Below, piece by piece: positions 3,702 to 37,500 of a stretch of 64,000 nt of DNA (position 1 is its first letter; each line of letters starts with the position of its first letter). The position numbers were made by a program, and so were the translations under genes. The notes under the pieces are model-generated. The model was not told the DNA's origin. It saw only the letters and a program-made list of their open reading frames with translations, and made no database searches. The stretch is from Desulfobulbaceae bacterium (GTDB lineage Bacteria; Desulfobacterota; Desulfobulbia; Desulfobulbales; Desulfurivibrionaceae): positions 108,840 to 172,839 of the forward strand of contig SJBG01000003.1 of the NCBI GenBank assembly GCA_004332195.1. The letters run 5' to 3'.

Positions 3702-4922
3702 GTGTCTGCTTTTCGCTATCCACGCCCCGGCGATCAGGTTCGCGGTAAACGCCCCCGTGATCCGATCTTCAATCTGGTTGCCGGGGCTTTTCCTTTTGTT
3801 ACCCCCTTGCTGGATTTCTTCCTGCAGTATCTGGCCGCTGAACGCCGCCTGGCAACCAACACTCTGGATGCCTACCAGACCGACCTGCTCTCTTTTTTTG
3901 CCTTTCTTGTCCGCAGTTCTTCAAGTTCTGCCCGTAAATCACGGGCTGGACCAGCATCCAAAATCCCCGATATCCCCCAAATTTCCAAAATTCCTGAAGT
4001 CCCCAATGCCCCCAAGGTCTTCAATGTTCCCGGTGTCCACGACGTCCAGAATGTCCACGACGTCCAGAATGTCCACGTGGACACCGGGAACACCTTGGAC
4101 ATTGTGGACACCGGGGACATCGATACCAGCAACATCAGCAACATCAACAATATCAACGACATCGGGCCCGAACATCTGCGGGCCTACCTTGCCGCATCTC
4201 ACCGCGAGGGCATCAGTTCGCGTAGCACTGCCCGTCGAATCTCAACGTTGCGCGCATTTTTCCGTTTTCTTGAAGGCGAGCAATTGCTCAAGCACAACCC
4301 TGCCGCCTTGCTCGATCTGCCCAAGCCCGGTCATGCCCTGCCCAAGGTTTTAAGTGTTGCCGAAGTCGAGCTGCTGCTAACCCCACCAGCCCACCAGGGT
4401 CGCCAGGGCCAACAAGCCCCCCTGGCCCTGCGCAATCATGCGATGCTGCACCTGCTTTACGCCACGGGAATGCGGGTTTCTGAGCTGGTCAAACTGCCGG
4501 TGGCTGCGGTTAACCAGGCCGGTCATTTGCGAATATTAGGCAAAGGAACCAAAGAGCGTCTGGTACCCTTTGGTGAGGCTGCTCGCCAGACCATGGCCCT
4601 CTACATCACGCAGAGCCGCCCCCGGCTGCTCAAGCGGCGACGCAGCGATTTTCTCTTTGTCACCAGCCGGGGCACCGCCATGACCCGTCTACGTTTCTGG
4701 CAGATCGTTCGGGCTTCAGCCCAGAGTTGCGGCATCAAACAAGAGATCAGCCCCCATGTTCTGCGTCACTCCTTTGCCACCCATCTGCTGGAACACGGGG
4801 CCGACCTGCGATCCGTCCAACTCATGCTGGGCCATACCGATATTGCCACCACCCAGATCTACACTCATGTCGATGGCGCCCGCCTCAAAATGGTGCACCG
4901 CAAATTTCATCCCCGTGGTTGA
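3702..4922 (+). CDS. Tyrosine recombinase XerC/XerD with a long low-complexity insert in the N-terminal core-binding domain
   Basis: Catalytic motifs ATGMRVSEL, GKGTKERLVPF, HVLRHSFATHLLEHGADLRSVQLMLGHTDIATTQIYTHV; GTG start. Confidence 0.9.
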   Translation: MSAFRYPRPGDQVRGKRPRDPIFNLVAGAFPFVTPLLDFFLQYLAAERRLATNTLDAYQTDLLSFFAFLVRSSSSSARKSRAGPASKIPDIPQISKIPEVPNAPKVFNVPGVHDVQNVHDVQNVHVDTGNTLDIVDTGDIDTSNISNINNINDIGPEHLRAYLAASHREGISSRSTARRISTLRAFFRFLEGEQLLKHNPAALLDLPKPGHALPKVLSVAEVELLLTPPAHQGRQGQQAPLALRNHAMLHLLYATGMRVSELVKLPVAAVNQAGHLRILGKGTKERLVPFGEAARQTMALYITQSRPRLLKRRRSDFLFVTSRGTAMTRLRFWQIVRASAQSCGIKQEISPHVLRHSFATHLLEHGADLRSVQLMLGHTDIATTQIYTHVDGARLKMVHRKFHPRG

Positions 4923-4971
4923 TTATCAGCGCTTAATTGCAAAATCAAAGGTGAGCCGGTAGAGTGGCGTT

Positions 4972-7644
4972 ATGGACCTGATCACCACCCATATCAACGC
5001 CGATTTCGATGCTTTGGCCTCGATGGTGGCGGCCAAAAAGCTCTACCCCGAGGCCGTGCTGGCCTTTGCCGGGGCCCAGGAAAAAAATCTGCGCGATTTT
5101 TTCAGCCAGTCAGTGGATTTTCTTTATAACTTTCAGCGGCTCAAGAACATTCCTTTCGCCAAAATCAGGCGACTGATTCTGGTGGATAACCGTCAACCCG
5201 CCCGTCTGGGTCCCGTTGTTGCGTGCCTGGATAATCCCGGCCTGGAAATCCATATTTACGATCACCATCCCGCTGCTCCCGGCGATTTACGGGGCAAGGT
5301 TGAGCATATCCGACCATTGGGGGCCACCGTCAGCATCTTGGTCGATCTGCTTAAGTGCCGCAAGCTGGTGATCAGCCCGGAAGAGGCCACCTTGATGGCC
5401 ATGGGGCTTTACGAAGATACCGGCTCTTTTCACTTCGACACCACCACCCCTGAGGACCTGCAAGCCGCCGCCTGGCTGCTGGCCAACGGAGCTAATCTCC
5501 ATGCCGTCACCCAGTTTATCGCGCAAGAACTGACCAGCGCCGAGGTTACCCTGCTGGGCGAACTGATCCGTTCCGCCACCACCTACACCATCCAGGGGGT
5601 GGATATCACCATCGCCAAGCTGGGAATTGACAACTATTTCGACGGCTTTGCCGTGGTGGTCCGCCGCTTCATGGTGATGGAAAACCTTAATAATCTTTTT
5701 GCCCTGGCCCGGATGGGCCCGCGCACCTACCTCATCGCCCGCAGCCGAATTCCCGAGATCAACGCCGGCCAGGTGGCCCAACAATTCGGGGGCGGGGGCC
5801 ACGCCTCGGCCGCCTCGGCCACGATCAAGGAGCTAACCCTATTTGAGGCCGAGGAAAAACTCCTTCAAGTGCTTCATCAGCAGGTCCGGCCCCTGCGCCG
5901 GGCCGGCAAATTGATGAGCGCGCCCGTGATCAGCGCCCGACCCGAAATCAGCATCCGCCAGGCCGATGAACTGCTCAGTCGTTACAATATCACGGTGCTG
6001 CCGCTGGTGGACGAACAGCGGCGGGTTGTCGGCCTGATCTCCCGGCGGGTGACGGGCAAGGCCATTCAGTTGGGTCTTGAAGCCCAACCGGTCAGCGACT
6101 ACATGAGCACCGATTTTGCCACCCTGACCACTATGGCTGACCTGGGCGCGATTCAGGAGTTAATTATCGAGCATCGCCAAAGAATTATCCCGGTGGTGGA
6201 TGAGGGTGAGGGCGAGCTGCTGGGGGTGATCACTCGCACCGATCTTTTGAATCTGCTGGTCAACGACCCTTCCCGTTTGCCGCGCAATCTCCATGACGAA
6301 CAACTGCCTTCCAGCGAACGGCAGCGCAATCTGCAAAACCTGATGGTGGAACGGTTGGGCCGCAGAATTATGGTCCTGCTCCGCATTATCGGCGAGGTGG
6401 CCCAAGCCCGTAATTATCAAGCATTTGTGGTGGGAGGTTTGGTCCGTGACCTGCTTTTGCATGAGAGGAATCTTGATATCGACGTGGTTATCGAGGGTGA
6501 CGGGGTCCTGTTTGCCAAGGATCTGGCCGTCCGCCTCGACGGTCAAGCCCGGATTCATCGCAAATTCAAAACCGCGATGGTCAAATTGCCCGACGGATTC
6601 AAGGTGGATGTGGCCACCGCTCGCCTGGAGTATTACGATTACCCTGCGGCCATGCCCACCATCGAGCTTTCATCCCTTAAGCTCGATCTTTATCGCCGTG
6701 ATTTTACGATCAATGCCATGGCCATCCACCTCAACCCCGAAACCTTTGGCACCCTGGTGGATTTCTTTAACAGTCAAAATGATCTTAAAGACAAAAAAAT
6801 CCAGGTATTGCACAATCTGAGCTTTGTTGAAGACCCCACCCGGATCTTGCGCGCCATCCGTTTCGAGCAGCGGATGGGTTTTGCCATCGGTCTCCATACC
6901 GAACGCTTGCTCAAGAGTGCGGTGCGGATGAATTTCTTTGACCGTTTTTGTGGTTATCGCTTTTTTGAGGAATTAAAGCTGATATTAAGCGAGAGAAACC
7001 CCCTGCCCGCCATTCATCGCCTGGCCGCCCTCGGGCTCCTACCTTTTATCGATCCCCGACTGCGCTTAGAGTCGCGGCTGGCTGAAATTCTCCACGATGC
7101 CCAAGCCGCCCTGGCCTGGTACCGGTTACTTTATCTGGATCGGCCCTGTTATTGCTGGCTGGTATATCTCCTGGCCCTGACCACTAACCTCAAAGCTGAG
7201 GAATTGCAAACCTTTTGCGCCCGTTTTGCATTGCCGGCTCGGATGCAAGAGATGTTGCTTCGAGAAAAAAGAGTGGCTCAGCAAGCGGCCAGGGCCCTGC
7301 GCCGGCATGTCCCGACCAGCAACAGCGGGATTTATCACCTGCTCTCCGGCCTGGGCCCTGAGGGGCTGCTTTACCTGTTGACGATTACCCGAAAAGAGGT
7401 GGCCAAAAAATCGATTTCTTTATACGTCACCGACTTGAGTTTGATTCGGCCTTTGATCAGCGGCCATGATCTTAAAACCGCGGGGTATCAGCCGGGGCCG
7501 CTCTTTCGGAAGATTTTCGACCAGGTGCTTGATGCCCGCTTAGATGGCCTGGTAAAAACCCGGGAGGAGGAGCTGGCTTTGGTCCGCCAACATTTTCCCT
7601 GCATCCGGAATCGCCACGGAACCGTCAGCGGAACCCTCAACTGA
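4972..7644 (+). CDS. DHH phosphoesterase - CBS pair - tRNA nucleotidyltransferase (A-adding/CCA-type) fusion
   Basis: DHH motif (YDHHPA), GGGGHASAAS, two CBS domains, then AFVVGGLVRDLLL, DIDVVIEGDG, RRDFTINAMAI, EDPTRILRAIRF. Confidence 0.92.
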   Translation: MDLITTHINADFDALASMVAAKKLYPEAVLAFAGAQEKNLRDFFSQSVDFLYNFQRLKNIPFAKIRRLILVDNRQPARLGPVVACLDNPGLEIHIYDHHPAAPGDLRGKVEHIRPLGATVSILVDLLKCRKLVISPEEATLMAMGLYEDTGSFHFDTTTPEDLQAAAWLLANGANLHAVTQFIAQELTSAEVTLLGELIRSATTYTIQGVDITIAKLGIDNYFDGFAVVVRRFMVMENLNNLFALARMGPRTYLIARSRIPEINAGQVAQQFGGGGHASAASATIKELTLFEAEEKLLQVLHQQVRPLRRAGKLMSAPVISARPEISIRQADELLSRYNITVLPLVDEQRRVVGLISRRVTGKAIQLGLEAQPVSDYMSTDFATLTTMADLGAIQELIIEHRQRIIPVVDEGEGELLGVITRTDLLNLLVNDPSRLPRNLHDEQLPSSERQRNLQNLMVERLGRRIMVLLRIIGEVAQARNYQAFVVGGLVRDLLLHERNLDIDVVIEGDGVLFAKDLAVRLDGQARIHRKFKTAMVKLPDGFKVDVATARLEYYDYPAAMPTIELSSLKLDLYRRDFTINAMAIHLNPETFGTLVDFFNSQNDLKDKKIQVLHNLSFVEDPTRILRAIRFEQRMGFAIGLHTERLLKSAVRMNFFDRFCGYRFFEELKLILSERNPLPAIHRLAALGLLPFIDPRLRLESRLAEILHDAQAALAWYRLLYLDRPCYCWLVYLLALTTNLKAEELQTFCARFALPARMQEMLLREKRVAQQAARALRRHVPTSNSGIYHLLSGLGPEGLLYLLTITRKEVAKKSISLYVTDLSLIRPLISGHDLKTAGYQPGPLFRKIFDQVLDARLDGLVKTREEELALVRQHFPCIRNRHGTVSGTLN

Positions 7645-9745
7645 CGGCGACCAGTTTTTGTTGAACTTCACGGGGCACCGGGGCGTATTCACGGAAAGAG
7701 CGCGTAAAGCTCCCCCGGCCTTGAGTTATGGATTTGAGGGCGGTGCTGTATCTGTCTTGTTCGGCTAAGGGGGTGATGGCCTTGATCACCTGATACCGGC
7801 CTTTGGATGCCATGCCACTGATCATTGAACGACGGCTTTGAAGGTCGCTCATCACATCACCCATCACGTCTTCCGGCACCATGATTTTAAGGTCGTAGAG
7901 CGGTTCCAGGATTTGGGGGTTGGCCTCGCGGAAGGCCTCCTTGAAAGCTTGGGCCCCGGCAATTTTGAAGGAAATGTCGTTGGAGTCAACGGCATGCATC
8001 TTGCCGTCAAAAACCATCACCTGGACATCGCGGACGTAAGATCCGGTCATGGGGCCTTCCTGCATTTTTTCCATTATCCCTTTAAGAATCGAGGGTAGGA
8101 ATTTGGTATCCACCACCCCACCGACAATGCAGTTATAGAAAACCAGCTTGCCGCCCCAGGGCAGCTCGATTTCCTCCCGGCTTCGCACCGTGAGATCGGT
8201 GGGGTTGCCCATCCCCTCCTCGTAGGGTTCAATCCGCAGGTGAACTTCGGCAAACTGGCCTGAGCCACCGGACTGTTTCTTGTGCCGGTAGCTGGCCGTG
8301 GCCGCCTTTCTGATCGTCTCCCGGTAGGGAATCCGGGGGGAGATGAAATCGACCTTGATCCCGCAAATATTTTCCAGCCGCCACTTAACCAGGTTCAGGT
8401 GTAATTCGCCCTGGCCCCAGAGCATCAACTGCTTGATCTCCGCAGAAAATTCCGACCGAATGGTCTGGTCTTCGGCCTGGATGTCTCGCAGGACCTCGCT
8501 CAATTTTTCGTCGTGCTGCTGGTCGCAAGCAACCACCGCAGTGTTGATCCGGGGCGCGGGAAAATCAATGGCTTTTAAGGTGACGGGAAAATCATCGCGG
8601 CGCAGGGTATGATTGGTCCAGGCGCTCTTCATCTTCAGGGTGGCTCCGAGGTCGCCGGCCACCAGCTTGGTTACCGGCTGGCGGTTTTTGCCGGACATAA
8701 TAAAAAGCTGATTGAGCCGCTCGCGGTCTTTGGTGCCGCTATTGATCAGCTCCATCCCCTCACTGATTTCGCCGGAACAAACTTTGAAAAAGGTGATTTT
8801 GCCCAGATATGGTTCTACTAAGGTCTTGAAGACAAAAATTACCGGCGGGCCGGATGACTCGCAGGACAACAACGGGCCTTCGACAGTTTTTTCCGGGGGC
8901 ATTTCGATGGCCGAGGGCGCAACATTGTCGATGAAGCCCATCAACCGGCCACTACCCATGTTGCGCTTGGCTGATAGGCAAAAAATCGGGTAAAGATCAC
9001 GGCTGAGCATCCCGATTTTAAGGCCCTGGCGCATTTCATCCTCATCAAGACTGCCTTTTTCAAAGTAAAGCTCCATCAGCTTTTCATCGTTTTCCGCCGC
9101 CTTTTCCACCAACTGGTTGTGTAAATCGTCGGCCCGCTCGCGCTCTGATTCCGGAATTTCCAGTTTTTTCGGCTTGCCGCCCTCGGCCGGAAATTTGTAC
9201 ATGACCATTTTCAGCAGATCGATGATGCAATCAAAATTTTCCCCTTGATTCAGCGGGTACTGCATGATAACGGTCGCCGAGCCGAAGTTTTCCTGAATGG
9301 CGCTTACCGCGCTGAAGTAGTCTGATTTGGGGTGATCCAGTTGGTTAACGGCAAATATCGTCGGGGTTGAGTAACGCTCAAGATAGTCCCAGTTCTGTTC
9401 GGTGCCCACCTCCACCCCGTATTGGGCATTGACCAGCATTACTGCGGTATCCGCCACCCGCAGGGCGGAAATGGTTTCACCGACAAAGTCGTCCAGTCCC
9501 GGGGTGTCGATAATGTTGATCTTGTAATTCCGCCAATCGGTGTGCAGCAGGGTGGCGTAAACCGAGTTGCCCCGTTGGCGCTCAATGGGTTGGTAGTCGG
9601 AGATGGTGTTCTGATCCTCAACCGTGCCCCGTCGCTGAGACAGTCCGGCCTCAAAAACCATGGTTTCAGCCAGGGTGGTTTTGCCGGATTTGACGCTGCC
9701 AAGCAAAACGATGTTTTTGATAAACTTGTCATCATAAAGCTTCAT
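7637..9745 (-). CDS. Elongation factor G-like GTPase
   Basis: G1 GSVKSGKTTL, DTPGLDDF, NQLDHPKSD, EF-G domain IV/V signatures (SGGSGQFAEVHLRIEP, PEDVMGDVMSDLQSRRSMISGM); GGAGGT upstream of ATG at 9745. Confidence 0.88.
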   Translation of the reverse strand: MKLYDDKFIKNIVLLGSVKSGKTTLAETMVFEAGLSQRRGTVEDQNTISDYQPIERQRGNSVYATLLHTDWRNYKINIIDTPGLDDFVGETISALRVADTAVMLVNAQYGVEVGTEQNWDYLERYSTPTIFAVNQLDHPKSDYFSAVSAIQENFGSATVIMQYPLNQGENFDCIIDLLKMVMYKFPAEGGKPKKLEIPESERERADDLHNQLVEKAAENDEKLMELYFEKGSLDEDEMRQGLKIGMLSRDLYPIFCLSAKRNMGSGRLMGFIDNVAPSAIEMPPEKTVEGPLLSCESSGPPVIFVFKTLVEPYLGKITFFKVCSGEISEGMELINSGTKDRERLNQLFIMSGKNRQPVTKLVAGDLGATLKMKSAWTNHTLRRDDFPVTLKAIDFPAPRINTAVVACDQQHDEKLSEVLRDIQAEDQTIRSEFSAEIKQLMLWGQGELHLNLVKWRLENICGIKVDFISPRIPYRETIRKAATASYRHKKQSGGSGQFAEVHLRIEPYEEGMGNPTDLTVRSREEIELPWGGKLVFYNCIVGGVVDTKFLPSILKGIMEKMQEGPMTGSYVRDVQVMVFDGKMHAVDSNDISFKIAGAQAFKEAFREANPQILEPLYDLKIMVPEDVMGDVMSDLQSRRSMISGMASKGRYQVIKAITPLAEQDRYSTALKSITQGRGSFTRSFREYAPVPREVQQKLVAVS

Positions 9746-10006
9746 AAGACACCTCCACTGGTGTAGGTTGGCGATCGGATGGTTTAACTGCAACCCGGAT
9801 TTTGCAAATGAGACCAAACAAGGCGCGGGATTAACCGCGCTATGTTAATTGCGCTATTGACCGGCCCAACTCAGTCCTATACCATCTACCCTTAACAATG
9901 CCGATTTGGCAAGATGCTTTGGGGACAGCAGAAGACGGGGACAGGGGATATAGCACCTTCATCAAATTCCTGATTCCCGTAATAAGGCAAAATTGTGGAG
10001 ACTAAA

Positions 10007-11011: not shown

Positions 11012-11242
11012 TTTGTTGTAATCTCATACGGTTGGATGCTGATTGTCGCTAAAAATTCACCCTGAGCCTCAGCAGTAGGTTGTGACTGGTTGTTTTGGTT
11101 GTGGCTGCCACCAAAAACTAAGATCCAATCGGAAGGCGAAGCCTGATTTTGACAGAAGCCTGATTTTGCGTTGCAAAGGTGGCCGGAAAGGATTATTGCC
11201 AGGGGCATGGCTTGGGACAATGAGGGGTAAGACAAAAAACGA

Positions 11243-13646: not shown

Positions 13647-13663
13647 TGGTTTAAAAACGCAAG

Positions 13664-14941: not shown

Positions 14942-15045
14942 CAAACTGCGTGAATCTCTCGTCCCAGGCTCAATCAGGGCCTGAACGGAAAGTGCCGGGA
15001 CCAAATCAGGCGCTAGCTACAACATTGGCCAAGAGACAATCCGAT

Positions 15046-17808
15046 ATGAACGGCAGCGAAATCCGAGAAAAATTTTTAAGTTACTTTGTCGCAAAAGAGC
15101 ACACTCTGGTGCCAAGCGCGGCCCTGGTCCCCCATGATGATCCCACCCTTCTTTTCACCAACGCCGGGATGGTGCAGTTTAAGAAGGTTTTCACCGGTGA
15201 GGAGCGGCGTGATTACCCTAGAGCGGTAAGCTGTCAGCGCTGCGTTCGGGCTGGAGGTAAGCATAACGATCTGGATAACGTTGGTTATACCGCCCGGCAT
15301 CACACCTTTTTTGAAATGCTCGGCAACTTTTCTTTCGGCGATTATTCCAAGGATGAGGCGATTAGACTGGCCTGGGACTTTTTGACCAGGGAAATCGGCC
15401 TGTCTCCGACCAATCTCTGGGTGTCGGTTTTTGAAGACGATGACGAGGCCTACCAGATCTGGGAAAAAATCGCAGATCTGCCGCCAGGGCACATTGTGCG
15501 ACGGGGAGAGCAAGACAACTTTTGGGCCATGGGAGATACCGGCCCTTGTGGGCCTTGTTCGGAAATTCATGTCGATCAAGGGAGGCAAGGGAGGCAAGGG
15601 AGGCAAGGGGGACAGGGGGCAGGGGACAGGGGGCAGGAGGGGCAAGGTGGACAGAGTAGACAGGGTGGCCGGCTGAGTGAATCGAGGGGGTTGAATGAGC
15701 AGGGGGCGGTTATTGCCTGCGATAATCCAAGTTGCGGGGTGGGTTGTGACTGCGACCGTTTTCTTGAAATCTGGAACCTGGTTTTTATGCAGTACGATCG
15801 GGATGCCTCCGGCCGTCTCACCCCGCTGCCCAGGCCCAGCATTGACACCGGGATGGGTCTGGAGCGGATTGCCGCAGTAGCCCAGGGTAAGCATAACAAT
15901 TACCACTCCGACCTTTTTCAGCCGATTATCAGCCGTATCTGTGAACTGGCAGGGGTTAGTTACGGAGAAAACTCCCGCAATGGCACGGCCCTGCGAGTGA
16001 TCGCCGATCATGCCCGGGCCACCACTTTTCTGGTGGCTGACGGGGTTTTGCCGACCAACGAAGGGCGGGGCTATGTGCTGCGTCGGATCATGCGCCGAGC
16101 CGTGCGCTTTGGTCGATCGCTGGGCTTAAAAGACCCTTTCTTGGGGGCGGTTTGCGCGACCGTGGTTGCGACCATGGAGGAAGCCTGGCCGCACTTAACG
16201 GCAAATCGAGAGCTGTTGGCCAAAGTGGTGTGCCACGAGGAAGAACGTTTCCTCGCGACTCTGGATAAGGGCCTGAATATGTTGGCCGAGGAAATAGCCC
16301 GGCTTCGGCAGACTGGAGAAAAAACCATTGCCGGCTCCTTTATTTTTAAGCTCTACGACACTTATGGCTTTCCGGTGGACATTGCCAAGGACGTGGCTCA
16401 GGAAGAGGGTTTACGCGCCGATGAGCAAGGTTTTGTTGTCGCCATGGCTCGGCAGCGCGAGCAGTCGCGCAAATCCTGGAAGGGCGGGGGATCGAGCGAA
16501 CTCGGCCCCGGTTTGCGATCTTTGCAAAGTGAGGGGGTGCAAACGGAATTTGTCGGCTACGCTACCCGGCGCCACCATGCCACCCTGTTGGCCTTGCTTG
16601 GTGCGACAGGTAACCAACTGGCAGTGGCCGAAGCCGGAGCCCTGGTTAGCCTGATTTGCGATCAAACCCCATTTTACGCCGAATCCGGTGGTCAGGTGGG
16701 CGACGAAGGTGAAATCCTGGGACCCCAGGGCCGGGCCCGAGTATTCAATACCGTCAAGATCGGGGATAGCTTGATTCTCCACCAGGCTGAGATCAGCCGG
16801 GGGACGCTGCGGCCCGGCGAGGAGGTGCGGTTGGCGGTGGCCGATAATCGGCGCCGCCATATTGCCATTCATCACACCGCTACCCATCTGTTGCACGGTG
16901 CCCTGCGCCGGGTGCTGGGTGAACATGTCAAACAGGCGGGCTCTTTAGTCGAAGCGCGGCGACTGCGTTTCGATTTTACTCATTTTTCCCCCCTAACCCG
17001 TGAGGAAATTCGAACGGTGGAAGATTTGGTCAACGAAGAAATTCGGGCCAACACCCGACTTGAGGTGGCCACGCTTCAACGCGAAGAAGCCCTGCAAAGC
17101 GGAGCCGCCGCCCTTTTTGGGGAAAAATATGGGGAGATGGTGCGGGTGGTGACGGTTGGAGTTTTCAGCAAGGAACTCTGCGGCGGCACGCACGTGGGGG
17201 CCACCGGCGAGATTGGTTTGTGCAAAATAATTGCCGAAAGCGGGATTGCCGCCGCCACCCGCCGCATCGAGGCTTGCTGTGGGGGCGTTGCTCTGGTCCG
17301 AACTCAGGCCCTGGAAGATGAGCTGTATGACCTGGCCGTAAAGCTAAAAACTTCGCCGACGGAACTGGCCGGCCGGATTGACAAGCTGCTGATGCGGCAA
17401 AAGGAGCTGGAGCGCCGGACCGCAGGATTGATGGCCGAGGCGGCCCGTTTCGATCCTAAAGAGGTGCTTAAGAGCGCGACCGAGGTCGATGGCGTTAAAG
17501 TGGTGGCCCGTTGTCTCCCGGTCGATTCCGTTAAAACCCTGCGCGTGGCCGGTGATCGTCTACGGGATCAAATGGGTAGCGGCATTGTGGTCCTGATTGC
17601 CGAATTGGATGGCAAGGTCAGCTTGTTGGCTATGGTCAGCAAGGACCTCACCGGCCGTTACCGAGCCGGGGAGATCGTTAAGCGGGTGGCCGAACTGGTG
17701 GGCGGCCATGGTGGGGGGCGTCCAGATATGGCCCAGGCTGGTGGCAATCAACCGGCAAAAATCCCGGCAGCCCTGACGGCAGTGCCTGGCATTGTGGCCA
17801 CGATGTAG
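15046..17808 (+). CDS. alaS: Alanyl-tRNA synthetase with a Gly/Gln/Arg-rich insert
   Basis: FTNAGMVQFKKVF, NVGYTARHHTFFEMLGNFSFGDY, GDTGPCGPCSEI, GVGCDCDRFLEIWNLVFMQYDRD, HHTATHLLHGALR. Confidence 0.96.
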   Translation: MNGSEIREKFLSYFVAKEHTLVPSAALVPHDDPTLLFTNAGMVQFKKVFTGEERRDYPRAVSCQRCVRAGGKHNDLDNVGYTARHHTFFEMLGNFSFGDYSKDEAIRLAWDFLTREIGLSPTNLWVSVFEDDDEAYQIWEKIADLPPGHIVRRGEQDNFWAMGDTGPCGPCSEIHVDQGRQGRQGRQGGQGAGDRGQEGQGGQSRQGGRLSESRGLNEQGAVIACDNPSCGVGCDCDRFLEIWNLVFMQYDRDASGRLTPLPRPSIDTGMGLERIAAVAQGKHNNYHSDLFQPIISRICELAGVSYGENSRNGTALRVIADHARATTFLVADGVLPTNEGRGYVLRRIMRRAVRFGRSLGLKDPFLGAVCATVVATMEEAWPHLTANRELLAKVVCHEEERFLATLDKGLNMLAEEIARLRQTGEKTIAGSFIFKLYDTYGFPVDIAKDVAQEEGLRADEQGFVVAMARQREQSRKSWKGGGSSELGPGLRSLQSEGVQTEFVGYATRRHHATLLALLGATGNQLAVAEAGALVSLICDQTPFYAESGGQVGDEGEILGPQGRARVFNTVKIGDSLILHQAEISRGTLRPGEEVRLAVADNRRRHIAIHHTATHLLHGALRRVLGEHVKQAGSLVEARRLRFDFTHFSPLTREEIRTVEDLVNEEIRANTRLEVATLQREEALQSGAAALFGEKYGEMVRVVTVGVFSKELCGGTHVGATGEIGLCKIIAESGIAAATRRIEACCGGVALVRTQALEDELYDLAVKLKTSPTELAGRIDKLLMRQKELERRTAGLMAEAARFDPKEVLKSATEVDGVKVVARCLPVDSVKTLRVAGDRLRDQMGSGIVVLIAELDGKVSLLAMVSKDLTGRYRAGEIVKRVAELVGGHGGGRPDMAQAGGNQPAKIPAALTAVPGIVATM

Positions 17809-25997: not shown

Positions 25998-27303
25998 TTA
26001 CAGTTTTTTTAATTCGTAGAGCAGTTGCAAGGCCGCAAAAGGGGTCAACTGATCGGGCTGGATTGCTTCCAGGTGGCGGCGCAGAGGATCCTCGGCGCCA
26101 AATAACATCAGTTGGCTGGGTTTGCCCTCTGGCGAGGGCTGCCCTTGGTCGGTTTTTGCGCGAGCTTCCGCGATCCGAGGCTGACCATGGCGATTATATT
26201 CGTTTTGTTCGATATTATGCAACAACTCCTTAGCCCGAGCAACCACTCTAGGTGGCACTCCGGCCAAGGCCGTCACCTGGATGCCGTAGCTGCGGTTGAC
26301 CCCGCCGGGCAACAGCTTGTGGAGAAAAACGATGGTGTCGTTCCACTCCCGCACCGCGATGTGGAAATTATGGATGCGGGGCTGGGTGGCGGCCAGTTCG
26401 GTCAATTCATGGTAATGGGTGGCGAAAAGGGTTTTGATGCCCCGGCCGTCTTTGTTGACCAAGGCCTCGGCCACGGCCCAGGCGATGGCCAGGCCGTCGA
26501 AGGTCGAGGTTCCCCGGCCGATTTCATCCAAAATCACCAGGCTTTGGGGCGTGGCGTTGTTGAGGATGTTGGCGGTTTCGTTCATCTCCACCATAGCAGC
26601 AGTGGGGGAAGTGAAGCTGCAAAGCGGCCGAGTCGGCAGCGGGATTGGCGCCGGCATTGGCACAGGAACGGGGACGGACACCGGCGCCGGGGTTGGGAGC
26701 GGAGTTGGTGTGGGGCATCGCTTGCCCCTGGTTGGCGGTTGGCTTTTGCGGTTTGGTGGTTGACTCAGGCGCCAACAGAATTTCAGCAGGACTCATCCGA
26801 CTCAACTCGTCGAGCAGTTCAATCTCCTGGCTAAATTCCCCAACCATAAATTCGCCGGTAGAAAGATCTACCAGGCTTAAGCCCCAAAGCTGATCCCGAT
26901 GACAAACAGCGGCTAGAAAACGATTCTCCTGGTCGTCCAGCAACTGATCATCCACCGCCAGACCGGGGCTGACCACTCGCACCACCTCGCGGTGAACCAG
27001 CCCCTTGCTCGGGGCGGGATCTCCCATCTGTTCGCAGATTGCCATCCGTCGGCCCGCTTTGATCAGTTTGGCCAGATAAGTTGATGATGAGTGGCAGGGG
27101 ACCCCGCACATGGAAATTTTTCCCGCATCCCCCTTGTTGTCTCTTGCGGTCAGCGTAATTCCTAAAATCCGGGCGGCTTCAACGGCATCTTCGAAAAACA
27201 ACTCGTAAAAATCACCCATCCGGTAGAACAGGAGAGTGTCTGGATATTGACCATTGATCTCCAAATATTGTTGGATCATGGGGGTGATTTTTATTTTGGT
27301 CAT
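25998..27303 (-). pseudogene. mutS: MutS, internally deleted and frameshifted (N-terminal mismatch-binding part plus C-terminal ATPase part)
   Basis: N part: TPMIQQYLEINGQYPDTLLFYRMGDFYELFFEDA...[12 protein letters not shown] (ORF 26524..27327); C part in another frame: [45 protein letters not shown]...[12 protein letters not shown] (ORF 25998..26681). Core, lever, clamp and Walker A are absent; a TP/AP/VP dipeptide tract lies at the junction. Confidence 0.85.
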
Positions 27304-27458
27304 GGTGGATCGCTTCCCGGTTGTCATTGGGGCCGGGACTGTGGCGGAACCGCAGCGGAACCGCAGGGCCTCATCAGGGCATTACTCGCTCAATAAATTT
27401 CTGTTTTCGGACGAGTTTGGGTTGTCGTCTGAAGTGGCCCGGTTAGTTTTTGGGCGAA

Positions 27459-28469
27459 TCAGCTCTTGTTTCGAATCTTGTCATCGAGGTTGATTGTCGG
27501 TTCCCGGTTGGCCGGGTACTCTGCCTCTTCTGCTTCTTCCGCCTCTTCCTCGTCTATCGCGTCCAGCGGGTCCTCAAGGTTGAAAACCATGTCGTCGCCC
27601 AGGTCGGGGAGTACCCATTCATTCAAGCGTGGCAAGATTGAGGTCGAATCTGGCGCTAACGGTTCCGATCCGGTTGTCAATTTCGCTTTTTGGGTGGAAT
27701 CGGGATCAAGCCCCTCTCGATAGCCAGATGTAGTCTCCGGCATCTCGGAAACTGGCGACGCCTCCTGCTCGGCGACCGGCAGCCTTAAACCTTCTGATAG
27801 TTCCATGGACTGGTTGCGTTCCGCAAACTTCGTTGCCGGTGACGTCGGGGTTTGGTCAGTGGCGGCGGTGGTGGCTAAAGTCGTCCCGCCAAGTCCGACA
27901 AAGGATCCGACTTGCGATGACTGGCTGATGGGCGTGGGTTGGTCTTGGTCCAGCTCCAGTTTGGCCAGGTAAGATGCCAGCAGTTGGCGGACATCTTGGC
28001 GAACCAGATTTGTCATCTCTTTGAGTCGGTCAACCTGTTGCTCGAGATCGGCAATCTCGCGGCCAGTGCTTTCTTCTATTTCCCGGGCTTCAGCCTGGAC
28101 CTTGGCGCGTATTTCCCTGGCTTCTTTTTGAGCCTTAACCCGTATTTCCCCGGCCTCTTTTTGGGCCTTAACCCGTACTTCCTGGGCCTCGGCCTGAGCC
28201 TCGGTCAGTGCTTCTCGGGCCTTTTCCTTCATTTCCTGGGCGATGGTCTGAGCCGAGAGAATGGCGTTCATGGCAACCTTTTCCTGTCGCTGGCTTTTCT
28301 CGACCATTTGTTCCGCAAGCTCAAGTTTTTCATGCAACATCCGGTTCTCTTCGTTTAAAGCCTGAACCACGGTGGCGATCTGTTCCAGAAAATCATCAAC
28401 TTCATCCACGTCGAAACCCCGAAAACGAACATGAAACTGCTGGCTCTTAATGTTTTGCGCGGTAAGCAT
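27459..28469 (-). CDS. DivIVA-domain coiled-coil protein
   Basis: MLTAQNIKSQQFHVRFRGFDVDEVDDFLEQIATVVQALNEEN, then coiled coil with ~11-aa repeats (VKAQKEAGEIR). Confidence 0.88.
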   Translation of the reverse strand: MLTAQNIKSQQFHVRFRGFDVDEVDDFLEQIATVVQALNEENRMLHEKLELAEQMVEKSQRQEKVAMNAILSAQTIAQEMKEKAREALTEAQAEAQEVRVKAQKEAGEIRVKAQKEAREIRAKVQAEAREIEESTGREIADLEQQVDRLKEMTNLVRQDVRQLLASYLAKLELDQDQPTPISQSSQVGSFVGLGGTTLATTAATDQTPTSPATKFAERNQSMELSEGLRLPVAEQEASPVSEMPETTSGYREGLDPDSTQKAKLTTGSEPLAPDSTSILPRLNEWVLPDLGDDMVFNLEDPLDAIDEEEAEEAEEAEYPANREPTINLDDKIRNKS

Positions 28470-29235: not shown

Positions 29236-29284
29236 CTTCTTTCCCCTGGGGTGAGACCCTCCGCGGTTTCGATTTTTTACTTTA

Positions 29285-29427
29285 GGTCACCTTGAAAAAT
29301 TGCTCTTTCGCCCGATTTCTGCGTTATGCTCAAAAAATTATCCTCGGAATATCAACCAGATGCCTGTGGTAATTTTTTTTTGCAGGCCTTGAGCTCGAAC
29401 AAAATAGCTAATTTTTCAAGATAGCCT
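29285..29427 (-). repeat. MITE-like repeat family 1, copy D (full length, reverse orientation)
   Basis: GGTCACCTTGAAAAATTGCTCTTTCGCCCGATTTCTGCG...AACAAAATAGCTAATTTTTCAAGATAGCC. Confidence 0.9.
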
Positions 29428-29499
29428 TTAGCCAAAGAGCGTGATCAGCCGCCGTTTAAAGAGGAAGCCGAAAAACAATGGTTGACGTTGCTCATCTTC

Positions 29500-31026
29500 T
29501 CATTTTTGGGCTTTGATCCGGGGAAAAAGGTTTTCCCCCAAATTGACCTTGCTCCCCGGCGCTAATCTCCCCCAGTGGCGCTGGGCCGTCAAACCCTCAT
29601 CCAGGCTGAACCCTAAGGCGGCGGCCATCTTTGCTGATGCCTCAGGCATGATTGGCCCCATGGCGCCGGCAATACAGCGCAGAGTTTCCAGCAGGGTGTT
29701 GAGTACCGTGGCCAAACGTTGGGCCTGAGTCGGATCCTTGGCCAACTCCCAGGGGGCGTTGGCGACGATGTAGCGGTTGGCTCGACCGATAAGCTCCCAG
29801 ACGGTCTCTAAGGCTTGGCGAAAGGCCCAGGCCCGCATTTTGTCTCGGTAATCAGCCAGCATTGCCAAGCTGGCGAGGACCAGTTCCTGGTCCTCGCCAC
29901 GTAGTGATCCAGGGGTCGGCACCTGGCCGTTGGCGAAGTTTTTCACCATGGTCAGGCTGCGGCTGAAAAGATTGCCAAGGTCGTTGGCCAAATCAAAGTT
30001 ATGCCGGGTGCGCATGGCCTCAGCGGAATAGGAAGCATCCAGGCCAAATGACATCTCCCGCAAGAGAAAGTAGCGAACCGAATCAACCCCGAAATCGGCC
30101 ACCAGCTCTTCAGGCCGAATTACGTTGCCGATGCTCTTGGACATCTTGGTTTCGTCGACGTTCCAGTAACCATGGACATGCAAACGACGATACGGGGTCA
30201 GCCCCATGGCCTTGAGCATGATCGGCCAGAAGATGGCATGGGGCTTTAAAATATCTTTGGCGATCAGATGTTCAGCTCCGGCCCAGCGTTGAACAAAGTC
30301 CCGGTTACTAGGATAGTCGATCCCGCTGATATAGTTAATCAGGGCGTCGAACCAGACGTAGGTAACAAAGTTTTGATCAAAGGGCAGGGGGATGCCCCAG
30401 TCCAGGCGGCTGATCGGCCGAGAGATGCAAAGATCGGCCAGGGGATCACGCAAAAACGAGATGATTTCGTTGCGGTAGCGCGTGGGGGTGATGAAGTCCG
30501 GGTTGGCTTTGATGTGATCGAGGAGCCATTGTTGATAACGGCCCATCCGGAAAAAGTAATTCTGCTCGGCCACCTTTTCCGGGTGGGTGAGATGGTCGGG
30601 GCATTTATTGTTGCTCAGCTCTTTTTCAGTGAGAAAACGTTCGCAGCCCTGGCAGTATAGCCCCTCGTAATCACTGAAATAGATATCCCCCTGCTCATAA
30701 ATTTTTTGCAGGATTCCTTGGACCACCGTGATATGAGCCGGATCGGTGGTGCGAACGAAATTGTCTGGTTCCACCAGCAATAAGGACCAGGCGGATCGAA
30801 ACTTGGCGCTAACCTCATCGACATAGTCGCGGGGCGCAACTCCTGCGGCAGCGGCCGCCTGGACGATTTTATCACCGTGTTCGTCAGTGCCGGTCTGGAG
30901 GAAAACCGCACGGCCATCAACGCGCGCGAAGCGGCGTACGGTGTCGGCTACCACTGCCGTATAGGCGTGACCGAGATGGGGGGGGGCGTTAACGTAAAAG
31001 ATCGGGGTGGTGAGATAAAGCGTCAT
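29500..31026 (-). CDS. metG: Methionyl-tRNA synthetase
   Basis: TTPIFYVNAPPHLGHAYTAVVADT, FLQTGTDEHGDKIVQAA, HVHGYWNVDETKMSKSIGNVI. Confidence 0.96.
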   Translation of the reverse strand: MTLYLTTPIFYVNAPPHLGHAYTAVVADTVRRFARVDGRAVFLQTGTDEHGDKIVQAAAAAGVAPRDYVDEVSAKFRSAWSLLLVEPDNFVRTTDPAHITVVQGILQKIYEQGDIYFSDYEGLYCQGCERFLTEKELSNNKCPDHLTHPEKVAEQNYFFRMGRYQQWLLDHIKANPDFITPTRYRNEIISFLRDPLADLCISRPISRLDWGIPLPFDQNFVTYVWFDALINYISGIDYPSNRDFVQRWAGAEHLIAKDILKPHAIFWPIMLKAMGLTPYRRLHVHGYWNVDETKMSKSIGNVIRPEELVADFGVDSVRYFLLREMSFGLDASYSAEAMRTRHNFDLANDLGNLFSRSLTMVKNFANGQVPTPGSLRGEDQELVLASLAMLADYRDKMRAWAFRQALETVWELIGRANRYIVANAPWELAKDPTQAQRLATVLNTLLETLRCIAGAMGPIMPEASAKMAAALGFSLDEGLTAQRHWGRLAPGSKVNLGENLFPRIKAQK

Positions 31027-32078
31027 GATTTGATGCGATCCAAGGTTTTCTTTTCTCTTTCCCGCGTCGTCTGGGTTTTGCCGCGGCTCTTGTCCGGCTC
31101 ACAACGTTGCCACTCGTGGCGCTGCCATGTAATGACCTGTTCGGGGTCGTCGGGGGTGTTAACCTCGAGAGTTTCCTCCAGGATGTTGACTTTTAACACC
31201 TTAAAATCCCGACCGTCCAAGGTGACGATCTTACCCGGCTTGGGCATTTGTCGTCGCAGTTGTTGGTAGGTTGAAAACTCGTAGGTCAGGCAACAAAGCA
31301 GGCGGTTGCAGACCCCGGATATTTTGGCGGGATTGAGCGCCAGGCCCTGCTCCTTGGCCATTTTAATGGAAACCGGGGCGAAGTTGCGGATAAAGGAGTT
31401 GCAGCACAACTCCCGACCGCAACAGCCGATACCTCCGAGCATTTTGGTTTCATGGCGGACCCCCACTTGGCGGATCTCTATGCGGGTGCGAAATTTCTGG
31501 ACCATATCTTTGACCAGTTCGCGAAAATCCACCCGATTTTCGGCGGTAAAATAGAAAATAATTTTGCTGCCGTTAAAAAAACGTTCGACCTTGATCAGCT
31601 TCATCGGCAGGTCGTGTTTAGCGATGAGTTGTCGGCCGCTGAGGAAGTCTTCCCGTTCCCTGATTTGCAGATTCCGATATTTTGCCAGTTCTTCGCGCTC
31701 AGCTCGGCGAAACACCAAAGGGATGCCGGTTTTTGCATGGACGGAATCCCTGCCGCCCCCGGTGGATGTTCCTTGTTGTCTGCCCATGGGCCGCTTACCC
31801 ATGGACCGATAGCTACAGGATTGCTTGCCATTGGACGGATCGCCGCTGGATTGCTTGCCCACGAACCCGCAAGGGTGAAATCCGTTCACCACCAGAGCTG
31901 GTTCTAAGCCGTGGTCGGTCTGAACCATAACAAGTTCATCCTGCCTGAGGTCGTCAATCCGGCTTTGGGCCGTGCGAGGTTGATCGTCCGGGCGAAAACG
32001 AATGAGGGCGCAGGTGGGTAGTGATCCACGCTCGTCAGCCTGATCGTTTTTATTTTTATCATCGTTGTCGTTTATCAT
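31023..32078 (-). CDS. PSP1 C-terminal domain protein (RicT/YaaT family) with N-terminal repeat insert
   Basis: IIFYFTAENRVDFRELVKDMVQKFRTRIEIRQVGVRHETKMLGGIGCCGRELCCNSFI, NPAKISGVCNRLLCCLTYE. Confidence 0.9.
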   Translation of the reverse strand: MINDNDDKNKNDQADERGSLPTCALIRFRPDDQPRTAQSRIDDLRQDELVMVQTDHGLEPALVVNGFHPCGFVGKQSSGDPSNGKQSCSYRSMGKRPMGRQQGTSTGGGRDSVHAKTGIPLVFRRAEREELAKYRNLQIREREDFLSGRQLIAKHDLPMKLIKVERFFNGSKIIFYFTAENRVDFRELVKDMVQKFRTRIEIRQVGVRHETKMLGGIGCCGRELCCNSFIRNFAPVSIKMAKEQGLALNPAKISGVCNRLLCCLTYEFSTYQQLRRQMPKPGKIVTLDGRDFKVLKVNILEETLEVNTPDDPEQVITWQRHEWQRCEPDKSRGKTQTTREREKKTLDRIKS

Positions 32079-32096
32079 AAGGCGGCTAGGATACCA

Positions 32097-33194
32097 TTAA
32101 AAAAGATCAAAGAAAAGCACTTCACAGATCAGAGTTCGGTTGCAGTTGCGCTTAAGCTGAGACTTGGCCCGGCGCAACTGTTCTTCGCGGTGTTGGCTGA
32201 ACGTATCTGGATCGTCCCGAAGGTTCCAGCGATCTTTAGCGTGGGCCAACAGTGGAGCCAGATCTTGGTTGATCAAGGGGCGGGGGGGAAATCGGTGGTC
32301 GGCCGCTTTTTGATGATCGTGCGCGGCGGAATACACCGTCAGATCATGAAAAAAAGAACTCAATAAATCGAGAAAATCATCCAAGTATTTTTCCAGTTTG
32401 GCGCACTTTTCGGCCAGGCGCAGGACTTCTACTGTCGCGGCCGGCGCCTCTTGCGTATAGGTCAGCAACATGATCAGGACCTCTCGGCGCAAGTTAAGCA
32501 GGTTTTTCTGCCGCAGTATTCGGGCCCGACTCAGGCTGCCTTCGGCTACGGCGGCCAGGGTGGTGGCTTCGGCTTGGTCTATTTTCTCCTGTAGTACCAG
32601 GATATTAGCTAAATGGGTAACGCTTAGGGGAAAAAATGGAATTACCTGGCAACGGGAAACAATGGTCGGCAGAATTCCGCCGGCCTCATCGCCGGTGAGG
32701 ATAAAAATAGTGCTAGGCGGCGGTTCTTCCAGGACTTTGAGTAAGCTGTTGGCGGCTTCTCGCCGCATGGTGTGCACTTCAGCCAGCAGGACTACCCGGT
32801 TGCCGGCCTCTAACGGAGGAAAGACCAGAGCTTTTTTGATTTCGCGGATTTGCTCAATTTTAATTGCTGCCCCCTCTGGCAAAATTTCCATGAAATCCGG
32901 GTGGTTGCCAGAAGCGAATTTACGACACGATGGGCAAGCGCCACAGGCCTCAAGTAAATCTGGCCTTGGCAAAATCGGCTTGGTCGAGGCCGCGGGCTTG
33001 CGGTCAGGGGTGGTGAAAAGCTGGTGAGACCGACAGTTGAGGGTCGCGGCCAAGGCCTGGGCGGCGGTTTTTTTGCCGATCCCGGCTGGTCCTCGGAAGA
33101 GATAGGCGTGGGCCAGCTTGCCGCTGCCGATGGCCCGGCGCAGCATTTCCTTGGCCTGATCCTGTTCGATGAGCGCGGAAAAAGCGACAGCCAT
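32097..33194 (-). CDS. holB: DNA polymerase III delta' subunit
   Basis: HAYLFRGPAGIGKKTAAQALA, CGACPSCRKFASGNHPDF, NSLLKVLEEPPPSTIFIL, RCQVIPFFPL. Confidence 0.87.
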   Translation of the reverse strand: MAVAFSALIEQDQAKEMLRRAIGSGKLAHAYLFRGPAGIGKKTAAQALAATLNCRSHQLFTTPDRKPAASTKPILPRPDLLEACGACPSCRKFASGNHPDFMEILPEGAAIKIEQIREIKKALVFPPLEAGNRVVLLAEVHTMRREAANSLLKVLEEPPPSTIFILTGDEAGGILPTIVSRCQVIPFFPLSVTHLANILVLQEKIDQAEATTLAAVAEGSLSRARILRQKNLLNLRREVLIMLLTYTQEAPAATVEVLRLAEKCAKLEKYLDDFLDLLSSFFHDLTVYSAAHDHQKAADHRFPPRPLINQDLAPLLAHAKDRWNLRDDPDTFSQHREEQLRRAKSQLKRNCNRTLICEVLFFDLF

Positions 33195-33203
33195 GGCGGT
33201 GAC

Positions 33204-34478
33204 TTAACCCCACAGCCCTTTTTGCCGAGGAGTTAAATCTTCCTCGCTTGTGGCGATGGCGTCGCGTTTTTTTTGACTAACCGACTTGGTGGCGATGGCG
33301 GCGCTCTTTTCTTGACTGACTTGGTTTGCAGCGACGGAGTCACTATTTTTTTGATTGATCGGCAGCGACAGGGATGATTCCTGGGCTTGCGTCGCCTTTG
33401 CTGAAGTTTGCGTCGTTTCTGCTGGAGCTTGAATCGTCCTTATTGGGGCCGGCGCGGTGACCAGAGGCTTTGGTTGGGCGGCGAGAGGGACAACAGGTTG
33501 GGCCTCGGCGGAATTGTGGCCCCGAAAATAGAGAAAACGCTCCAGGTGGCGTTGATATTCACTCCACTGGTAGCCTGGTTGCTCGGTTTGACGGCTGAGT
33601 TTGGCGAAATAATTAACCTTGGCATCGAGATCATCGAGCAAGTGGAGGATAAATGCCTCCTGAATCATCGGCAGGGTTGGGGATCCGAACTCGTGGCGAC
33701 CGTGATGACTTAAAATCAGGTGCTGGAGACGCTCCAGTAATTCCGGGGGGAACTCGGGGATCACTGTCGCTTTTTCCCGGATCGCCTCCGCTCCGATCAC
33801 CAGGTGGCCCACCAGGCGGCCCCGACTACTGTAACCAAAAGGGTAGCTCTCATAGGTAAGCTCTTCGATTTTACCCAAGTCATGCAGCAGGGCCCCGGCC
33901 AGCAGCAGATCGCGATCGATGGCGGGATAGAGAGTGCTGATAACCGCCGCCAGTCTGGCGACCGCCACCGTATGTTCCAATAGGCCCCCGAGATAGGCGT
34001 GATGCATGGTTTTAGCCGCCGGCGCGGTGGTGAATTGCGCCAAAATTCCGGAGGAGTCTTGAAAAATACTGCTCAGCAAGCGGCGCAGATGATGATTTTT
34101 GATCCCGGCAATCAGGGCATGCAGTTCACGCTTAAGCTCCTGGTGATTGACCTCGCCGCTGGGCATAAAGTCGGCCAGGTCAACTTCGTTGGCGTTTACT
34201 GCCGTCACTCGGTTGATCCGCAGTTGGGGGGTGTCGCGGTAACGCTCCCCCTGTCCGCTGATCTGGATAAAACAACCAGGCTGGCAGTAAGGGGCCAAGG
34301 TTTCAGCATTATCCCAAACCGGGCCCCCGATCTCCCCGCTTTTGTCCAATACGGTCAGCCGTAAAAAGAGTTTTTTGGTTTTGGTTTCTCCATGGCTCAA
34401 TTCCTTGACCAGAAAAACCCCCTCCACCGCGTCACCTTCTTTGATCTGGTTGATGAAGATTCCTTTGTTGAGCGTCAT
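33204..34478 (-). CDS. OB-fold plus HD domain 3'-5' exoribonuclease (YhaM family) with repeat-rich C-terminal tail
   Basis: KELSHGETKTKKLFLRLTVLDKSGEIGGPVWDNAE; HHAYLGGLLEHTVAVARLA, LLAGALLHDLGKIEELTY, LILSHHGRHEFGSPTLPMIQEAFILHLLDDLDAKVN. Confidence 0.9.
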   Translation of the reverse strand: MTLNKGIFINQIKEGDAVEGVFLVKELSHGETKTKKLFLRLTVLDKSGEIGGPVWDNAETLAPYCQPGCFIQISGQGERYRDTPQLRINRVTAVNANEVDLADFMPSGEVNHQELKRELHALIAGIKNHHLRRLLSSIFQDSSGILAQFTTAPAAKTMHHAYLGGLLEHTVAVARLAAVISTLYPAIDRDLLLAGALLHDLGKIEELTYESYPFGYSSRGRLVGHLVIGAEAIREKATVIPEFPPELLERLQHLILSHHGRHEFGSPTLPMIQEAFILHLLDDLDAKVNYFAKLSRQTEQPGYQWSEYQRHLERFLYFRGHNSAEAQPVVPLAAQPKPLVTAPAPIRTIQAPAETTQTSAKATQAQESSLSLPINQKNSDSVAANQVSQEKSAAIATKSVSQKKRDAIATSEEDLTPRQKGLWG

Positions 34479-34549
34479 AATTTTTACTGCCCTCAAATTA
34501 AGATGGAAGCCCTCGTCAAAAGAAGGACAGCTTCAGCTTCGTTCACCTT

Positions 34550-37500
34550 TTAAAAATCCAAGGTTTGTTGCCAGCTCTTTTTAAGATCAACAAGTCGTTC
34601 AGCTAAGATCGTCGCGCCGCTGAGCCCACTGATCTGCAGGACCGGTTCTGCGGTGACCACGCCAATCCGGCGACAAACGGTCCCGGCCATGAGTAGTTCA
34701 AAGGCGGCGGCATCGGCCGGGGCAACAGTGGCCAGCAGGCGGCTCTGGCTTTCGGAGAAGAGCAACAGGTCATTGCGGGCTAGGTCTTTAGTCGCGACCA
34801 GCCTCAGGTCAAGGTTTAGCCCTAGGTTGCCGGCAAAAGCGGTTTCCGCTGCCGCCACCCCTAAACCGCCATCGGAAAGATCGTGACAGGAGGCCACCAA
34901 CCCTTGCCCCATGGCCCGGTGAAGCGCGCGGTAGCGATTAAGGGCGCTTGTGGCATCGACCTTTGGCACCGTGATGCCGATCCCGTGATGCCTGGCGGCG
35001 TACTCCGAGCCTCCCAGTTCGTTGGAAGTCAGGCCCAGCAGGTACACCAGATCGCCGGTCTTTTTGACGTCCATGGTCACCGCCTTGTTGACATCCTCGA
35101 TTTTGGCCACCACCGAAAAGAGCAGGGTGGGGGGGATGGAGATTTTAACCTTGCCCGCCATATAATCGTTTTTCATCGAGTCCTTGCCGGAAATGCAGGG
35201 GACGCCAAAGGCCAGAGCGTAGGCGGCCAGGGCCTGATTGGCGCGCACCAGTTGGGCCAACTTGTAAGGCCCGTCCGGGTTTTTATCCGACAGAATCGGG
35301 TCGCACCAGCAGAAGTTATCAATACCAGCCATGTGATCGAGCCCGGCCCCGCAAGCCACCGCATTGCGGACGGCCTCATCCATGGCACAGGCGACCATAT
35401 GATAAGTGTCGATGTCGGAATAGCGGGGGCATAAGCCGTGGGCAATAACCAGCCCCTCATGAGAATCGAGCAAGGGGCGGATCACCGCCGCGTCCGATGG
35501 CCCGTCGTTTTCGGCCCCGGTTAGGGGCTTGACCACGCTGCCGCCCTGGACTTCGTGATCGTATTGACGGACCACGTATTCCTTGCTGCAGATATTGAGC
35601 CGGGCCAAGAGCGCGTGCAGTTCGACCCCAAGGTCAGGGTTTTCCGGCAACTGCAATTCGGGGTGAAGCGGCGGAGTCCAACGGGCGGTCATCTGCATGG
35701 GCGGCAGGCCTTGATGAACGAAATCCATCTTCAGGCACGACACGACTTTACCTTGGTAAAGGACATGAAACAGGCCGGAGTCGGTGAAGCTCCCCAGTAC
35801 CGTGGCCTCTACCTCCATTTGGGCGCAGAGTTTAAGGAATCGTTCGAGTTTGGCCGGTGGCACTGCCAGGGTCATCCGCTCTTGAGCCTCGGAAATCATG
35901 ATCTCCCAGGGTTGCAGGCCGGCGTACTTTAATGGCGCCCGATCAAGGTGAAGTTCAAAGCCGCCGGTATCCTGGGCCATTTCGCCCACCGAGGAGGAAA
36001 GTCCTCCGGCTCCGTTGTCGGTGATACAGTTGTATAGCCCGAGATCGCGGGCCTTGAGCAGACAGTCAAACATCTTTTTTTGGGTGATGGGATCGCCGAT
36101 CTGGACCGCGGTGGCGGGCGAGCCTTCGTGCAGCTCCTCAGAGGAAAAGGTGGCCCCGTGGATGCCGTCTTTGCCGATCCGTCCGCCGACCATCACAATC
36201 AGATCACCGATTCGGGCCTGCTTGTCCTGGGATGGTTGACCACCCACCAGGGCGGGCATAAAGCCCACGGTGCCGCAAAAGACCAGGGGTTTGCCGGCAA
36301 AACGCTGGTCAAAAACCAAAGAGCCGTTAACCGTGGGAACCCCGCTTTTGTTGCCGCCGTGCTCAACCCCCAGGCGCACCCCTTCAAAAATCCGCTTGGG
36401 GTGCAGTAGGCGGGCGGGCAGGGGTTTATCGTAAAAGGGTGAGGCAAAGCAAAAGACGTTGGTGTTGGCAATCAACTTAGCCCCCATCCCGGTGCCGAAA
36501 GGGTCGCGATTGACCCCGACAATTCCGGTCAAGGCCCCGCCGTACGGGTCCAAGGCCGAAGGACTGTTGTGCGTTTCCACCTTGAAAACCACGTTCCAGT
36601 CCTGATTAAAGCGGATTACCCCGGCGTTGTCCTTGAAAACCGATAGACACCAGTCCCGATCCCCCATGCGTTGGCGAATTTCAGCGGTGGGCTGTTTGAT
36701 AAAGGTGTCAAAGAGGCTGTGAAACACGGTTCTTTCACCGCTGAGGGTGTCCTCGTAGTGAATATCGCCGCCAAAGATCTTGTGCTTGCAATGTTCAGAC
36801 CAGCTTTGGGCCAGCACTTCCAGTTCGACATCGGTGATCTTGGCCCCCAGACCAAACTTTCGGCGGACTTTAAGGGTTGCAGGGTCGGCCAGATGGTCGC
36901 GAATGATCTTCATTTCATCGAGGTGCAAGGCCAACACCCCGTCCCGGCTGATCCGCAGCAACTCCTGATCGGCGACATCGAGGTCGATCTCTGCAACTCG
37001 CCAAGGCTCGCCACCCGTCACTTTGGGGGCAAAGGCGGTTACCCCGCCTTGAGTGGTGAATTCCTCGCGATTGAGGATAGTGAAACGTTCGATCAATTCG
37101 TTGGCCAACAGTTTGGTGGCAATGGTTGCGGCGGTCGTCTGGTTGAGCTTGCCGGCCAGAAGGTACTGGACAGAGGTGTAAACCGCCTCGCTCCCGGCCA
37201 GTTTGCGACCAAGCAGCATTTCCAGGGCACCAGCCGCGGTACGTCCTTCATTGTCGGTAACCCCCGGGCGAAAACCTACTTCGATACACCAGTCAAAAGC
37301 GATGCCCTGGCGCAAGGCCAGAGCAACACCCTGAGAGTCCACGGGGGGGTGGCAATGAGGGGGAACGTTTAGAGGGTGCGGATCAGAAAGTGGATCCGGT
37401 GGGTTTGGTGGATTTGGTGGGTCTGGTGAATCCAGTGAACTTGGTGGACCTGGTGGGGCTGGCGGAGTCTTTGGGGCTTTTGCCGCCCAGGCGGCGTTTG

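Follow-up and report, generated by a model that had tools for sequence, protein, structure and literature searches.

Short tandem arrays and in-frame enzyme inserts in a small Desulfurivibrio genome with mutS and mutL pseudogenes

Results and Discussion

The locus and its genome

The window analysed, a stretch of 64,000 nucleotides (G000:C15:108840-172839), derives from G000, a genome of the sulfur-metabolising genus Desulfurivibrio comprising 1,659,679 bp in 21 contigs and carrying a completeness rating of 100%. At 1.66 Mb it has about half the usual size, the well-assembled genomes of the same genus reaching 2.8-3.1 Mb. Among these same-genus relatives are G002, assembled as a single contig of 3,097,763 bp, and G003. 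A literature search for the habitat or host of the organism retrieved nothing specific. Genes were taken as mechanically called open reading frames (ORFs), with coding support drawn from homology to the limited number of relatives compared, and the following features are central to the analysis.

3702..4922, plus strand: XerD/XerC-type tyrosine recombinase, ORF intact (TIGR02225, 341.8 bits, above the cut-off; PF02899 split in two stretches)
3969..4142, plus strand: 9-nt-period insert in XerD (DIPQISKIPEVPN...HDVQNVHDVQNV...), about 58 aa over G003 (alignment, shuffles)
4025..4041, plus strand: left arm, TGTTCCCGGTGTCCACG, of a perfect 17-nt inverted repeat within the XerD insert
4076..4092, plus strand: right arm, CGTGGACACCGGGAACA, of the same perfect 17-nt inverted repeat
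14950..17808, plus strand: AlaS, ORF intact (TIGR00344, 926.9 bits)
15586..15708, plus strand: AlaS insert with a 9-nt, then 14/7-nt period (QGRQGRQGGQG...), 41 aa (alignment)
25998..26681, minus strand: mutS pseudogene, 3' part in a different frame, domain V from position 61, without Walker A (PF00488 61-188; L073 MutS segment compared)
26524..27327, minus strand: 5' part of the mutS pseudogene, keeping domain I and the first portion of domain II before the frame is lost (PF01624; PF05188 positions 2-58)
26600..26775, minus strand: low-complexity sequence of 6-nt period (XP dipeptides) spanning the deletion junction of mutS (1/500 shuffles reach its value)
28108..28190, minus strand: 33-nt array in a DivIVA-domain protein
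31023..32078, minus strand: RicT/YaaT-family protein (NF041131)
31755..31870, minus strand: 15/30-nt-period segment in the RicT linker (shuffles, alignment)
33385..33431, minus strand: 21-nt array close to the C-terminus of a YhaM-like HD exoribonuclease
34550..37741, minus strand: PurL with an N-terminal PurS-like part, ORF intact (TIGR01736, 505.3 bits, slightly below the cut-off of 525.75)
37325..37513, minus strand: PurL insert with a 9/18-nt period (PPAPPGPPSS...PPNPPNPPDP), 63 aa (alignment, shuffles)

Elsewhere in the window, CheA-, CheW-, CheR-, CheD- and CheB-like chemotaxis genes (49545-57475, recognised by eye) are retained despite the small genome, which speaks against a simple obligate endosymbiont. 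At 1414-3162 on the plus strand a HisH-HisF fusion forms one ORF of 582 aa (HisH 2-200, HisF 270-580), a domain order familiar from eukaryotic HIS7-type enzymes. An IS630-like transposase, in two adjoining ORFs (an HTH part and a DDE_3 part), lies at the window edge (62798-63837, minus strand).

Repetitive inserts in conserved enzymes

The original prediction placed in-frame segments of mainly 9-nt period within three otherwise canonical enzymes, XerC/D, AlaS and PurL. For AlaS and PurL this is upheld both by shuffling and by the insert borders in alignments. The best lag is 9 nt in AlaS (15576-15699, z 5.4) and 18 nt, twice nine, in PurL (37335-37490, z 5.3), values reached by none of 500 Markov and none of 500 codon-order shuffles. 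The AlaS insert comprises 41 extra residues (about 213-253) following HVDQG, and the PurL insert 63 residues (about 77-139) in a protein sharing 80-83% identity with its orthologues in G002, G003 and G004. Neither is an ordinary conserved linker among the relatives compared, as AlaS residues 213-249 have a counterpart in 0 of 37 relatives searched (a few with partial matches only) and the PurL insert is missing from all seven orthologues aligned. The proposed placement in tolerant loops finds support for AlaS, where an AlphaFold2 model with a mean pLDDT of 77.7 and a mostly confident remaining fold shows residues 213-254 as a disordered loop (block means mostly 23-37).

The segment in the recombinase (3909-4161) also has a best lag of 9 nt (z 11.3; 0/500 Markov and 0/500 codon-order shuffles), with alignment borders at residues ~90-147, and its periodicity and borders thus stand, the best-scoring family being XerD (TIGR02225). 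Its novelty stands only in part. The enlarged loop, which sits in the N-terminal SAM-like domain, is long in G001 too, reaches a lesser length in G002 and G003, and is minimal in G004 and beyond the genus, so that a long variable loop already occurs in the genus and the insert amounts to about 58 aa beyond G003. In the predicted structure, a model of low confidence, the insert is unstructured. The inverted repeat within it folds well when the DNA is single-stranded (z -4.9); it requires more than simple slippage, and for at least one insert it points to template switching by fold-back.

Less remains of two further segments noted earlier, a 15-nt/5-aa insert in RicT and a 6-nt dipeptide sequence in mutS. 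Both were hand-picked and both have values that 1-2 of 500 shuffles reach (lag 15, z 3.8 in RicT; lag 6, z 3.8 in mutS), and are therefore marginal. The RicT segment retains a weak period, but the linker is similarly long in G001-G003, where it is non-repetitive and unrelated in sequence. The mutS sequence does lie at the junction of a large deletion; however, it belongs to a deletion pseudogene and not to a canonical enzyme with an insert. By alignment, a comparable linker occurs at the same position in relatives for RicT and partly for XerD, but not for AlaS and PurL. The 33-nt array of the DivIVA-domain protein belongs to the genome-wide load described below, though it may be an ordinary coiled-coil repeat. 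Outside any long ORF, at 523-597, a tandem array of TTTTTGGGTTTG stands opposite its own inverted copy with 19-nt arms in a hairpin-like arrangement.

Genome-wide load of short tandem arrays

Tandem-repeat density was compared between G000, 0.56 Mb of G002, 0.40 Mb of G003 and 1.05 Mb of other contigs, mostly from Desulfobacterota. G000 was scanned piece by piece, with borders mostly 20 kb apart and the pieces left unjoined, genes spanning a border being lost. Short-period arrays with a score of at least 60 number 85 per Mb in G000, 28.6 in G002, 10.0 in G003 and 10.5 in the other contigs, as against 0.6 in shuffled G000 (a figure that includes all periods). For units of 10-20 nt the densities are 49.4, 5.4, 7.5 and 5.7 per Mb, respectively. 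The surplus arrays of G002 mostly have units of 21-24 nt rather than 10-20 nt, and a genus-wide trait was accordingly rejected within the same-genus DNA compared, that of G002 and G003. Exact arrays peak at 12 nt (34.9 per Mb in G000 versus 7.1, 5.0 and 2.9 in the comparison sets, the lag-12 counts containing some 6-nt arrays), while those with units of 1-5 nt show no excess in G000 over the comparison DNA. The load also extends to proteins. Among orthologues of at least 60% identity, inserts of at least 10 aa number 27 in G000 versus 6 in G002, and 26 in G000 versus 8 in G003, and self-similar inserts of this length are found 7 to 0 in both comparisons.

The arrays are spread over 19 of the 21 contigs, and the 141 short-period arrays have 136 distinct units, which rules out one mobile sequence. 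The sole recurring unit, the 17-nt tandem unit ACGATTATAGAACATCT, occurs in six copies (L033:97-130, L041:97-130, L048:97-130, L135:14600-14633, L166:5661-5694 and L176:12891-12924). Three of these are equidistant from contig starts, and the unit is probably a piece of some multicopy element at which the assembly breaks. Inverted-repeat arms of at least 14 nt occur in 5 of 262 array neighbourhoods (1.9%) versus 0.33% of random windows, and XerD is the one conserved enzyme whose insert has them. With so mild an enrichment, hairpins or palindromes were rejected as a general driver, XerD being a special case. As a separate observation, A/T runs of exactly 8 reach 207.9 per Mb in G000 versus 124.7 expected, a rise seen in none of the three comparison sets, whereas runs of at least 9 are under expectation in G000.

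A strong filter by reading frame is apparent. Among arrays with a score of at least 50, the unit is divisible by three in 28 of 30 located in genes with homology on both sides, as compared to 23 of 60 located outside, that is, without an overlapping ORF of 150 aa (Fisher p 3e-7; 123 arrays were left unclassified). Unit sizes of the 60 noncoding arrays centre on 10-17 nt with no relation to three. Faster protein evolution was rejected, as four proteins show at most a slight rise in substitution rate in G000. Together, the frame filter and the near-normal rates show that purifying selection still acts.

The view that the inserts reflect a process and not one mobile sequence is hence supported genome-wide by the diversity of units, the several-fold excess, the spread over contigs, the frame filter and the surplus of inserts. 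The precedent named for it, the Rickettsia palindromic elements, are likewise found in-frame within conserved genes but constitute one mobile sequence family, and the difference then drawn holds, as the G000 inserts have neither a common sequence nor a general palindrome. Ehrlichia ruminantium offers a likeness in overall load, its genome being also small and, throughout, unusually rich in tandem repeats of many different units. The genome of Collins et al. (2005) is said to hold many length-variable tandem repeats with longer, largely intergenic units; the G000 units are short, many lie in conserved enzymes, and they occur together with mutS and mutL loss. The heptanucleotide repeats of Nostoc and Xanthomonas, for which polymerase slippage is the thought origin, resemble the G000 arrays in units exceeding those of classic microsatellites, but represent one G-rich, mainly intergenic motif family (PMC4692102), while the G000 arrays nearly all differ in unit and many are found in genes.

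Mismatch-repair and other repair genes

As judged from sequence, both mutS and mutL are pseudogenes in G000 and intact in same-genus relatives. The MutS_V domain gives a single match in G000 (positions 61-188 only, Walker A missing), while MutS frames of relatives with a match have 876-912 codons, with the exception of 750 in the incomplete G008; no match was obtained in G004 and G005, both incomplete genomes. The mutL gene of G000 is distributed over three frames, the frame changing near residue 192 and again near 262-274, and lacks the part matching residues 383-683 of the G003 MutL ORF, an array being located in the broken part. In G001-G004 the MutL frames have 617-785 codons. The broken mutL, like the genome-wide extent of the arrays and the inverted repeat in XerD, did not figure in the original prediction. 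Four other repair genes, recJ, polA, xseA and one dnaQ, are present and match all or nearly all of their models; a second, weak DnaQ-like match appeared in some relatives and not in G000. Loss of PolA, which could account for flap-type duplications, was rejected, as PolA is matched at model positions 1-885 in an open frame, and so was loss of RecJ, ExoVII or proofreading, as the genes are present.

Origin of the arrays

The reading considered probable is that this Desulfurivibrio lineage gathers short tandem duplications throughout its genome and that loss of mismatch repair (MMR) is the likeliest permissive cause. The duplications, with units of about 6-24 nt (outside genes typically 10-17 nt), would arise by slipped-strand misalignment in replication, and some would expand to imperfect arrays. 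In noncoding DNA every unit length would survive, in genes nearly only multiples of three, and the surviving genic duplications would sit in loops or termini tolerating added residues, giving in-frame low-complexity inserts in enzymes which presumably still work. That slipped-strand duplication with a filter by frame and loop accounts for the pattern is well supported, slippage being read from the anatomy of the arrays.

The role of MMR is supported by correlation. Loss of MMR mainly destabilises units of 1-4 nt, and that these show no excess in G000 counts against such a role. In E. coli, MMR limits slippage between imperfect repeats, so that with mutS and mutL lost, diverged units should be able to slip on. 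With reference to Lovett and Feschenko 1996, PMC7063769 lists mutations in mutS, mutL, mutH and dam as raising RecA-independent repeat recombination, and both PMC7063769 and PMC4907049 cite E. coli work tying MMR to the stability of diverged repeats; the G000 arrays are likewise imperfect. The E. coli system shares with G000 imperfect repeats and MMR, and predicts more slippage without mutS or mutL, but concerns laboratory constructs and deletions, whereas the case of G000 is natural, genome-wide and one of short-unit growth. Lovett and Feschenko reportedly followed how deletions form between long, diverged repeats, and not how 10-17-nt units grow. As the comparison includes one MMR-less genome, MMR loss as a cause is inseparable from the effects of a reduced genome and of relaxed selection.

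Relaxed selection in a shrinking genome is a possible, though not a favoured, explanation: duplications would arise at a normal rate, a small effective population would keep slightly harmful ones, and the loss of mutS and mutL would be another symptom. The genome size (1.66 versus 2.8-3.1 Mb), the GC content (54% versus 61% over the first 160 kb of G002) and the multi-frame matches (6-7% in G000 versus ~3.5% when the comparison is reversed) agree with this, but a frame filter of this strength and substitution rates close to normal do not, and noncoding DNA too carries many arrays (60, counted in G000 alone). On a par with it, and as tentative, is the loss or alteration of another replication or repair factor, such as SbcCD, ligase, a single-stranded DNA exonuclease or a translesion polymerase. 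The unit spectrum of 10-17 nt without a 1-5-nt excess is unlike the classic MMR-null signature, and the perfect XerD inverted repeat hints at fold-back template switching; against this, polA, recJ, xseA and dnaQ, the four genes covered besides mutS and mutL, are present. Ordinary genus-wide variable linkers under functional selection are very unlikely, since, although RicT linkers and XerD loops of unrelated sequence are long in G001-G003 also, this reading is refuted for AlaS and PurL among the relatives compared and the excess reaches noncoding DNA. An assembly artefact or sequencing error is least probable of all, as the draft consists of 21 contigs but its arrays are imperfect, occur in nearly all contigs and respect the frame only within genes, and short-read assembly collapses repeats more often than it creates them.

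Returning to slippage under MMR loss, a bolder and rather doubtful extension is that a mutational class of its own, the tandem duplication of ~10-17 nt, comes to light where MutS and MutL are naturally lost and grows into new segments in essential enzymes, such as those here bearing 40-60 extra residues grown from repeats. If true, lineages without MMR would continually supply new low-complexity protein sequence. Should MMR loss be the cause, other natural mutS/mutL-null bacteria would be predicted to carry more 10-20-nt tandem arrays, frame-filtered inside genes, and this genome would constitute a natural long-term experiment on the role of MMR beyond base errors and microsatellite slippage.
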